Shown here: in pieces, positions 3,807 through 19,080 of the stretch
Layout of the letters: every line of letters begins with the position of its first letter
Numbering within the stretch: position 1 is the stretch's first letter
Assembly: GCF_005862305.2 (NCBI RefSeq)
Contig: NZ_CP054021.1
Location: 2,170,001 to 2,234,000, forward strand
Origin: Rhizobium indicum
Lineage (GTDB): Bacteria > Pseudomonadota > Alphaproteobacteria > Rhizobiales > Rhizobiaceae
DNA length: 64,000 nt
Direction of reading: 5' to 3'
Notes under the pieces: generated by a model
Seen by the model: only the letters and a program-made list of their open reading frames with translations
What the model was told of the DNA's origin: nothing
The model's database searches: none
Program-made: the position numbers and the translations under genes

Positions 3807-3838
3807 AGGGCATAGGCCAACAATCGGGAGGAGCGGCC

Positions 3839-5086
3839 ATGTCGTCCTTGGATGGACCGGAACACACGCCGGTCCCGCCACCAATTCTGAATCCGGCCGG
3901 AGGTGCGAACCAGGTCAGGGTGCGAGCCTATAACGAACGGCTCGTGCTGTCGCTGGTGCGTCTCTACGGCGCATTGTCGAAGGCCGATATCGCGCGCCGC
4001 AGCGGGCTGTCGGCGCAGACCGTCTCCGTCATCATGCGGGTGCTGGAGAAGGAAGGGCTGCTGTCGCGCGGGGAACCGGTGCGCGGCCGTGTCGGCCAGC
4101 CGTCGATCCCGATGCATATCAATCCCGATGCTGTCTATTCCTTCGGCCTGAAGATGGGCCGGCGCAGCGCCGATCTGGTGCTGATGGATTTCGTCGGCCG
4201 CATCCGCATGCAGTTGCACCGGACCTATGCCTATCCGCTGCCGGATGAAATCCTCGCCTTCGTCACCTCGGGCATCCGGGAACTCGAAGAGCGGCTCGAC
4301 GACAAGCAGCGCGGCCGTATTGCCGGCCTCGGCATCGCCGCGCCTTTCGAGCTCTGGAACTGGGCCGAAGAGGTGGGCGCGCCGGCTGGCGCCATGGAGG
4401 TCTGGCGCGATGTCGACCTGCAGGCCGACATCGCCGCGCGCGTCTCGCATCCGGTCTTCATGCAGAACGATGCGACCAGCGCCTGCGGCGCCGAACTGGT
4501 CTTCGGCGTCGGGCCGTCCTACCCGGATTTTGTCTATTTCTTCATCGGCTCCTTCATCGGCGGCGGCATCGTCCTGAATTCGGCGATCTTTTCCGGCCGC
4601 ACCGGCACGGCGGGCGCGATCGGGCCGCTGCCTGTGCGCGGCAAAAACGGCGAGACTATGCAGCTGCTTGAAATCGCCTCGATTTTCGTGCTCGAAAACA
4701 TGCTGCGCGAGCGGGGCATCGATCCCGAGCCGCTCTGGTATTCGGCCGACGGCTGGGTGGATTTCGGCGAGCCGATGGAAGCCTGGATCCAGGATAGCGC
4801 CAAGGCGCTGGCGCAGGCGATCGTCGCCGCCGCCTCGATCGTCGATTTTAGCGCGGCCGTCATCGACGGCGGCTTTCCCGATTGGGTGCGCAGCCGCGTG
4901 GTGCAGGCCACCATCGATGAAGCCGCCAAGCTCGACCTGCAGGGCGTCGTCATGCCCGAAATCATCGAGGGCGCTGTCGGCGCACAGGCGCGCGCCATCG
5001 GCGGCGCCAGCCTGCCGATCTTCGCGCGTTACCTCACCGACCAGAACGTACTCTTCAAGGAGGTAGACCATGCTGAAAGGACTTGA
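3839..5086 (+). CDS. ROK-family transcriptional regulator of the fructose cluster
   Basis: This 415-residue protein has an N-terminal winged helix (about residues 30-95; SKADIARRSGLSAQTVSVIMRVLEKE is split here for clarity: SKADIARRSGLS, then AQTVSVIM) followed by a ROK sugar-kinase fold. The family's zinc cluster (HxG...CxCGxxGCxE) is absent, and the region reads AGAIGPLPV instead. This argues for a regulator without sugar-kinase activity. The start at 3839 has a GGGAGGAG Shine-Dalgarno. It is divergent from frcB and overlaps the downstream mutarotase gene by 17 bases. The likely role is sugar-responsive repression of frcBCAK. Confidence 0.88.
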   Translation: MSSLDGPEHTPVPPPILNPAGGANQVRVRAYNERLVLSLVRLYGALSKADIARRSGLSAQTVSVIMRVLEKEGLLSRGEPVRGRVGQPSIPMHINPDAVYSFGLKMGRRSADLVLMDFVGRIRMQLHRTYAYPLPDEILAFVTSGIRELEERLDDKQRGRIAGLGIAAPFELWNWAEEVGAPAGAMEVWRDVDLQADIAARVSHPVFMQNDATSACGAELVFGVGPSYPDFVYFFIGSFIGGGIVLNSAIFSGRTGTAGAIGPLPVRGKNGETMQLLEIASIFVLENMLRERGIDPEPLWYSADGWVDFGEPMEAWIQDSAKALAQAIVAAASIVDFSAAVIDGGFPDWVRSRVVQATIDEAAKLDLQGVVMPEIIEGAVGAQARAIGGASLPIFARYLTDQNVLFKEVDHAERT

Positions 5087-18418: not shown

Positions 18419-18623
18419 GACCAAACTCCAATCGGTTCCCGCACCGGACAGGCGGCGCCCGTTCAAATAGTCCGACGAGGCTTGCCGAGTCAAACCGCGG
18501 GAGGTGGAAGCCTTTGTTTTGCGCAATCCCTCGTGAAAACCGCAGGACCGGCGTTGCCCGGATCGGCAATTGATCGATTTCGACTTGAGGGGAAGAGACT
18601 TGGTGGGGAAAGACTTGGGGGGA

Positions 18624-18745
18624 AAGAAAAAAGCCCGACGCGGGAGGAGGTGCGCCGGGCTCTTGATCCTGACTGACAACTGGGAGGAGGAGTGTTGTCA
18701 GTCCGATGTAAGAGCGCTGGGAGGAGGAGTGCGCTGCTTACGAAG
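18624..18745 (-). ncRNA. Three-hairpin anti-Shine-Dalgarno sRNA (alpha-r14-like)
   Basis: On the minus strand three hairpins follow one another, each presenting CCTCCTCCC in its loop. Stems are at 18708-18741, 18672-18702 (9-bp perfect arms) and 18633-18660. The last is followed by TTTTTTC and serves as a Rho-independent terminator. Loops complementary to GGAGG ribosome sites are the hallmark of the rhizobial alpha-r14 sRNA family, which acts in trans on mRNAs. A candidate promoter (TACTAT at -10) lies just upstream near 18752. Family membership is by motif recognition; the ends are approximate. Confidence 0.78.
18633..18660 (-). terminator. Rho-independent terminator of the anti-SD sRNA
   Basis: A GCCCGRCGC-type stem with the CCTCCTCCC loop, followed on the minus strand by a run of six T. 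The loop motif is thus part of the terminator itself. Confidence 0.8.
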
Positions 18746-18912
18746 ATAGTAATAGCCAATTCTTTTGATTCGGAATAGCGAAAATACCGCAATGCAGCAA
18801 TGCGCTGGACGCAAGGCTTGCCCTCAAAATAACAGGTCACCGCCTCATTTTGCAGCATGTTTGACCAGATGGTCAAATTTATGCCGAAATTTGCGGCCTC
18901 GGCCTGGGGAAC

Positions 18913-19080
18913 TGCCCCTCATCCGGCTGCCGCCACCTTCTCCCCGTAAACGGGGAGAAGGGACATGTCGCGGCCTCTCGATTCCCTCTTATCCCCGTGG
19001 CCTACCCGTTCCTCGCCAACCTGTCGCAGGGCACGTCCCCTCGCCCCGTTTTTACGGGGAGAGGGTTAGGGTGAGGGGCA
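18913..19080. repeat. RIME-type intergenic mosaic element
   Basis: The element opens with TGCCCCTCATCCGGCTGCC and closes with GGTGAGGGGCA, an outer inverted repeat. Inside are two hairpins: an 11-bp perfect one (CCTTCTCCCCG at 18936-18946 and its complement at 18951-18961) and one around CGCCCCGT/ACGGGG near 19042-19063. The sequence is the familiar rhizobial RIME1 type. It lies between the sRNA promoter region and the aldo/keto reductase. Confidence 0.82.

Follow-up and report, generated by a model that had tools for sequence, protein, structure and literature searches.

The locus and its predicted three-hairpin RNA

In the window, that is the whole stretch of 64,000 nucleotides that was analysed, the element lies between an aldo/keto reductase gene, upstream, and a DUF900 hydrolase gene (18418-17141), which is on the same strand and starts about 210 bp downstream. 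The hydrolase protein has 98% identity with those of Rhizobium leguminosarum, R. laguerreae and R. johnstonii 3841, and the genome can therefore presumably be placed in the R. leguminosarum complex. The ar14 covariance model of Rfam (RF02344) matches the minus strand at 18747-18626 over its full length, with 117.1 bits against a curated cut-off of 58.8 and an E value of 4.9e-21. The original prediction had assigned the element to this family (alpha-r14), and the computation confirms a family member first read by eye from the raw sequence; the minus strand was also right, while the ends given there, 18745-18624, are two bases away from those of the model. The 5' end used here is inferred from the Rfam model and is uncertain by a few nucleotides. 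Against the model, the first stem lacks a base on one side and has one non-standard pair there. Apart from ar14, Rfam gave a single match over cut-off in the window, a tRNA at 33858-33785. The element is a standard copy of a rhizobial regulatory RNA family already described; structure, anti-Shine-Dalgarno (anti-SD) motif and silencing are known for NfeR1-type RNA from articles published between 2007 and 2023, as far as these describe them. The additions made here are modest, namely the chromosomal place of the window copy, its putative promoter and a likely link to the frc locus.

Table 1. Features of the ar14 copy and of its upstream region (window coordinates)
Feature	Position	Strand	Details
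ar14-family sRNA	18626-18747	-	about 122 nt; RF02344 model positions 1-123
Hairpin 1	18708-18741	-	anti-SD CCUCCUCCC in loop 18719-18727; 99.0% of pair cells kept in orthologues
Hairpin 2	18671-18703	-	anti-SD CCUCCUCCC in loop 18682-18690; 100% of pair cells kept
Hairpin 3 with U-tract, terminator-like	18627-18664	-	anti-SD CCUCCUCCC at 18642-18650; 99.8% of pair cells kept
Likely core promoter	18749-18778	-	CTATTC 18778-18773, AT-rich TATTAC 18754-18749; placed from the conservation profile only
LysR-type box TGCG-N6-GCAT	18800-18813	-	about -66 to -53 from the model 5' end
Imperfect NtrC-like site TGC-N11-GCG	18841-18857	-	about -110 to -94
18-bp perfect palindrome TTTGACCA-NN-TGGTCAAA	18860-18877		0.01 expected, with up to 2 mismatches allowed

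The predicted fold has a minimum free energy of -50.6 kcal/mol, compared with -25.7 (sd 3.2) for shuffled sequences (z = -7.9). It consists of three hairpins with the motif unpaired in every loop, the loops reading CUCCUCCUCCC or CCUCCUCCC; the consecutive hairpins with one shared motif that had been described by eye are thus recovered in the fold, in the motif positions and in the ar14 model. All three copies of the 9-mer CCTCCTCCC in the window are on the minus strand and within the element, at the three motif intervals of Table 1. Since 0.78 occurrences are expected per whole window and as many as three appear in 6 of 100 shuffles, the motif count alone is weak, whereas the predicted fold provides strong evidence for the element. 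The third hairpin, which had been proposed as the terminator, looks like an intrinsic terminator, with TTTTTT after it; a simple terminator scan passed over it, since that scan allows loops of up to 8 and this loop has 10.

Orthologous loci were taken from the best 80 of 531 encoded relatives of the hydrolase. Upstream of the gene, three closely spaced motifs are present in 60 of these loci and absent in 20, the latter including all 13 named Agrobacterium and also four named Rhizobium. The ar14 model scored over cut-off in each of the five motif-array loci scanned and gave no match over cut-off within the stretches examined of the 20 motif-less loci. In an alignment of the window with 41 distinct orthologues the loops are invariant, the rows having been picked by the exact motif; no degenerate copy over cut-off is hidden by this choice, because the 20 loci left out are without ar14 over cut-off. 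In keeping with ar14 membership, the stems vary with their base pairing kept: across the 41 distinct rows pairing is kept in 99.6% of pair cells, and both sides have changed in 9 of 33 pairs (4 of 10 in hairpin 2), the structure line having been taken from the window's own fold, which favours the count somewhat. Of 500 shuffles, not one attains the percentage paired or the covariation score, and a single one attains nine both-side pairs; in slid controls the pair cells kept drop to 29-43%. The 19 further pair types do not set the alignment apart from the shuffles, 478 of 500 of which reach that number.

Between the sRNA and the hydrolase match the spacing among orthologous loci is wide in six of the 60 (611-620 bp). 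In R. johnstonii 3841 an opposite-strand open frame of 128 aa lies in this interval (L011 5418-5804) and has no Pfam match; in the window, at 18533-18620, only letters like the last codons of that frame appear, by eye, to be left.

Upstream region and further ar14 copies

The upstream conservation profile contains a block of near-complete conservation. The sigma-70 scan had a single hit, at 18876-18847, about 100 nt upstream of the model 5' end, and listed no core promoter where one was expected; transcription from the hit would yield a longer RNA. From the place of the AT-rich hexamer we infer that transcription may start a few bases further down, in which case the distance to the LysR-type box would be like that published for NfeR1 (from -72). 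The box itself is one letter off the LsrB-type motif TGCA-N6-GCAT described for NfeR1 promoters (PMC10746234). A relaxed form, TGCR-N6-GCAW, is found at -66 or -67 in 60 of 60 orthologues, which are related and not independent sequences, compared with 0.17% of mononucleotide shuffles; the strict motif is present in 15 of the 60 and not in the window itself.

Further upstream, the relaxed NtrC-like form TGC-N11-GCR is found in 44 of 60 orthologues compared with 1.4% of mononucleotide shuffles. The published NtrC form, TGC-N11-GCA, which is reported to be drawn from an alignment of Sinorhizobium and Rhizobium NfeR1 homologues (PMC10746234), is found in 2 of the 60, and the window copy departs from it. 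The signature reported for NfeR1 homologues, CTTAGAC-N17-CTATAT together with the loop motif, gave no literal match in 394 family genomes and is too strict to be informative. The palindrome recurs in a looser form in 38 of 60 orthologues and in none of the other seven ar14 copies of the host genome; it is possibly an operator.

The host genome contains eight ar14 matches on four contigs, seven of them over cut-off. All 60 genus genomes sampled, the host genome counted, have ar14, with three to nine matches each; so do all 12 family genomes chosen for their size, over cut-off in 11 and with tandem copies in several. In three family relatives (G131 C59, G160 C16 and G166 C31) three tandem ar14 copies were observed within a few hundred bases.

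Among the eight host copies, a box near -66 is present only in the window copy and in a second copy, here L002 (G000:C1:2754359-2754480). The latter has an exact TGCA-N6-GCAT at -66 and an exact TGC-N11-GCA at -111, and is the sole copy with both exact sites at these places. Another copy, L004 (G000:C1:589540-589658), is without the box and is found in the trigger-factor gene neighbourhood, near a GidA-type gene that is probably trmFO; the genes around it are also found next to ar14 copies of other genera. At L003, L005 and L006, on contigs C4, C2 and C3, a further CACCTCCTCCCGC stretch was observed upstream of ar14, which suggests four-hairpin forms as described for SmelA099.

A LysR gene adjoins a tandem AbcR-type sRNA pair in the host genome, with a pyridine-nucleotide oxidoreductase gene beyond, which we take to be the arrangement expected of lsrB-trxB. 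No ar14 copy was found near this tandem pair (C1:4121402-4121704), and the AbcR-to-ar14 distance was therefore set aside as an unhelpful synteny clue. On contig C3 a suhB/AbcR-type match (151272-151348) is about 7.5 kb from an ar14 copy (158814-158936).

Gene starts complementary to the loops

Two gene starts, those of frcB and frcC, had been named as exact complements of the loops. The frcC start does carry GGAGGAGG, at 2447-2440, while the frcB start has GGGAGGAG instead; each is complementary to eight bases of the motif. Both gene names are those of the original prediction, Pfam indicating a periplasmic binding protein and a branched-chain-type permease. GGGAGGAG also precedes the ATG of the ROK-family gene next to frcB (3826-3841, plus strand), which brings the genes of the frc locus that fit the loops to three. 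Among 69 crude ORF starts frcB has the best loop-only pairing, at -20.1 kcal/mol, and frcC reaches -19.6, far beyond the median of -4.9 over the 69 starts and the 1% point of -14.4 kcal/mol for random 26-mers; the ntrB start of the host genome, GGGAGGCGG, has one mismatch to the motif and pairs more weakly (-16.6 kcal/mol). Duplex energies computed without regard to the folding of the sRNA itself were set aside as misleading, and the loop-only values were used.

Over the whole genome, GGAGGAGG and GGGAGGAG are found before ATG 69 and 52 times, compared with 10 and 8 times for the reversed patterns. The target set comprised 110 distinct starts, after removal of a duplicate match to one start and of an alternative start 3 bases from another; an open frame of 60 aa or more was present in 71 of them, which were kept, 39 were dropped, and proteins were cut at 300 aa. 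As control, the first 100 of 238 AAGGAGG places listed (reversed pattern 40), all on contig C1, were considered, AAGGAGG being a sequence that suits the ribosome and fits the sRNA loops less. The controls picked were 60 of the first 64, after exclusion of two that overlap GGAGGAGG and of one member from each of two overlapping pairs; 29 of the 60 were open compared with 71 of the 110 targets, and the two sets also differ in replicon.

ABC-transporter parts account for at least 15 of the 71 complementary starts when confirmed singly, the 20 scanned in this way having been picked as transporter-like or in the frc locus. By family tallies, which cover the first 25 of 95, 38 and 52 families, so that the counts are lower bounds, they account for at least about 20 of the 71, and for at least one of the 29 control starts. 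One TOBE domain, one MacB-type domain and two further binding-protein receptors (TctC, DctP) were not counted. On C1 only, at least 10 of 43 targets were singly confirmed as ABC-transporter parts, two of the ten being permeases with the same N-terminal sequence, compared with at least 1 of 29 controls (Fisher p 0.02). The loop-complementary starts thus appear rich in ABC-transporter genes, in a small comparison with an imperfect control from one replicon that is supportive only. Such an enrichment could also arise without any sRNA, if abundant transporter genes simply have strong Shine-Dalgarno sites.

Proposed function and related RNAs

The window copy resembles NfeR1/SmrC14/SmelC397, the alpha-r14 RNA of Sinorhizobium meliloti, in length (123 nt for SmrC14), in its three hairpins and in the CCUCCUCCC of each loop, as published. 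A LysR-type box upstream, one letter off in the window copy, is common to both (PMC10746234, PMC7143759, PMC2780559). NfeR1 (SmrC14) is described between SMc02051 and tig, where a second predicted sRNA adjoins it (PMC2573895, PMC2780559); unlike NfeR1, going by that published place, the window copy is not in the tig neighbourhood, where L004 sits instead, and its NtrC site is imperfect. By place it is not NfeR1; it is a paralogue with what appears to be a promoter partly of NfeR1 type. In S. meliloti, NfeR1 is reported to silence two ABC-transporter messages and ntrB through pairing in the start region, its three loops acting redundantly (PMC10746234, PMC7143759).

The element is very probably the gene of a trans-acting alpha-r14 (ar14, NfeR1-like) sRNA that is activated by a LysR-type regulator and whose loops lower the translation of several messages. 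What the window offers directly is its sequence, fold, conservation, family membership and complementarity to gene starts; for expression, activator and targets in this strain we infer the following. The window gene would be one of several paralogues in an R. leguminosarum-complex genome, and a LysR-type activator, most likely LsrB, would switch on its free-standing promoter. An RNA of about 122 nt would then fold into three stem-loops, the last of which would end transcription; each loop would show CCUCCUCCC, in the same sense as the 16S anti-Shine-Dalgarno sequence, and would pair with purine-rich Shine-Dalgarno sites (GGGAGGAGG), so that the ribosome would be shut out and the translation of several transporter and metabolic messages would drop jointly, the three loops providing redundancy. 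The idea, already present in the original prediction, that the ribosome sites of many messages are titrated at once agrees by analogy with the published mode of NfeR1 in S. meliloti (PMC10746234, PMC7143759), where loop-dependent silencing was shown by others.

Copy-specific promoters may indicate how a multi-copy sRNA family is divided among regulators in Rhizobium, NfeR1, the member studied in the articles cited, being from Sinorhizobium. One tentative reading, which we consider possible and rather doubtful, is that in the Rhizobium lineage the NfeR1 role has moved off the tig locus and been split between the window locus and L002, the nitrogen feedback loop being divided with it. L002 would have kept LsrB-type and NtrC-type sites; the window copy would have kept the LsrB-type box, its NtrC site having decayed and the operator-like 18-bp palindrome having been gained. 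If true, the Sinorhizobium-type loop would be divided between a copy under LsrB and NtrC and a copy under LsrB and a third regulator, and sugar uptake (frcB, frcC and the adjoining ROK regulator gene) would be among the main targets. Against such a rewired promoter, the alignment behind the published NtrC motif includes Rhizobium, which the L002 type would fit and the window type would not (PMC10746234).

It is rather unlikely that the copy in the window serves as a spare paralogue that is silent or seldom expressed, the working NfeR1-type RNA of this strain being another copy such as L002. The genome has eight matches, L002 alone has both exact sites, and in S. meliloti one of six copies is reported as reliably seen on Northern blots under the conditions tested (PMC7143759). 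An unused copy would, however, have no need of a relaxed upstream box kept in 60 of 60 orthologues, of a near-completely conserved upstream block or of compensated stems. It is very improbable that the hairpins serve the DUF900 hydrolase gene in cis as a 5' leader: they are on its strand and about 210 bp upstream, but the third hairpin ends in a U-tract, the spacing varies from less than 150 to 3561 bp, with the opposite-strand 128-aa frame intervening in R. johnstonii 3841, and the same RNA class is found in other contexts of the host genome, so that this role was rejected. A chance GC-rich repeat without function, for which the three 9-mer copies in 6 of 100 shuffles might speak, has a negligible probability and is already refuted by the fold z-score, the covariance model, the compensated changes and the conservation of the locus.

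Other RNAs share part of this design. SmelA075, with three hairpins, and SmelA099, with four, carry CCUCCUCCC and occur in several copies per genome, like ar14 here, and R. leguminosarum members are mentioned in the same source (PMC3927594). The AbcR1/2 RNAs (alpha-r15, suhB) also have anti-SD motifs and ABC-transporter targets according to PMC7143759, and an LsrB site is reported in the AbcR1 promoter (PMC10746234). They differ in having two CU-rich motifs and in belonging to another family, RF00519, which has five matches in the host genome, four over cut-off and all away from the window element. The loops of CcsR1-4 of Rhodobacter sphaeroides are of the same anti-SD type. These RNAs are described as processed by RNase E from a transcript shared with a DUF1127 protein gene, and not as free-standing (PMC10253847); RS0680a of the same species is described with an anti-SD motif in each stem-loop and a link to stress, but has two stem-loops (PMC10253847, PMC3927594).

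Repeats were observed on both sides of the sRNA. Just past the terminator, at 18586-18627, there are short imperfect GGGGAAAGACTTGG-type repeats, shorter in R. johnstonii 3841. At 18935-19066 an inverted repeat with arms ACCTTCTCCCCGTAAA and TTTACGGGGAGAGGGT, 100 bp apart, is present, which we presume to be a rhizobial intergenic mosaic element from its appearance.
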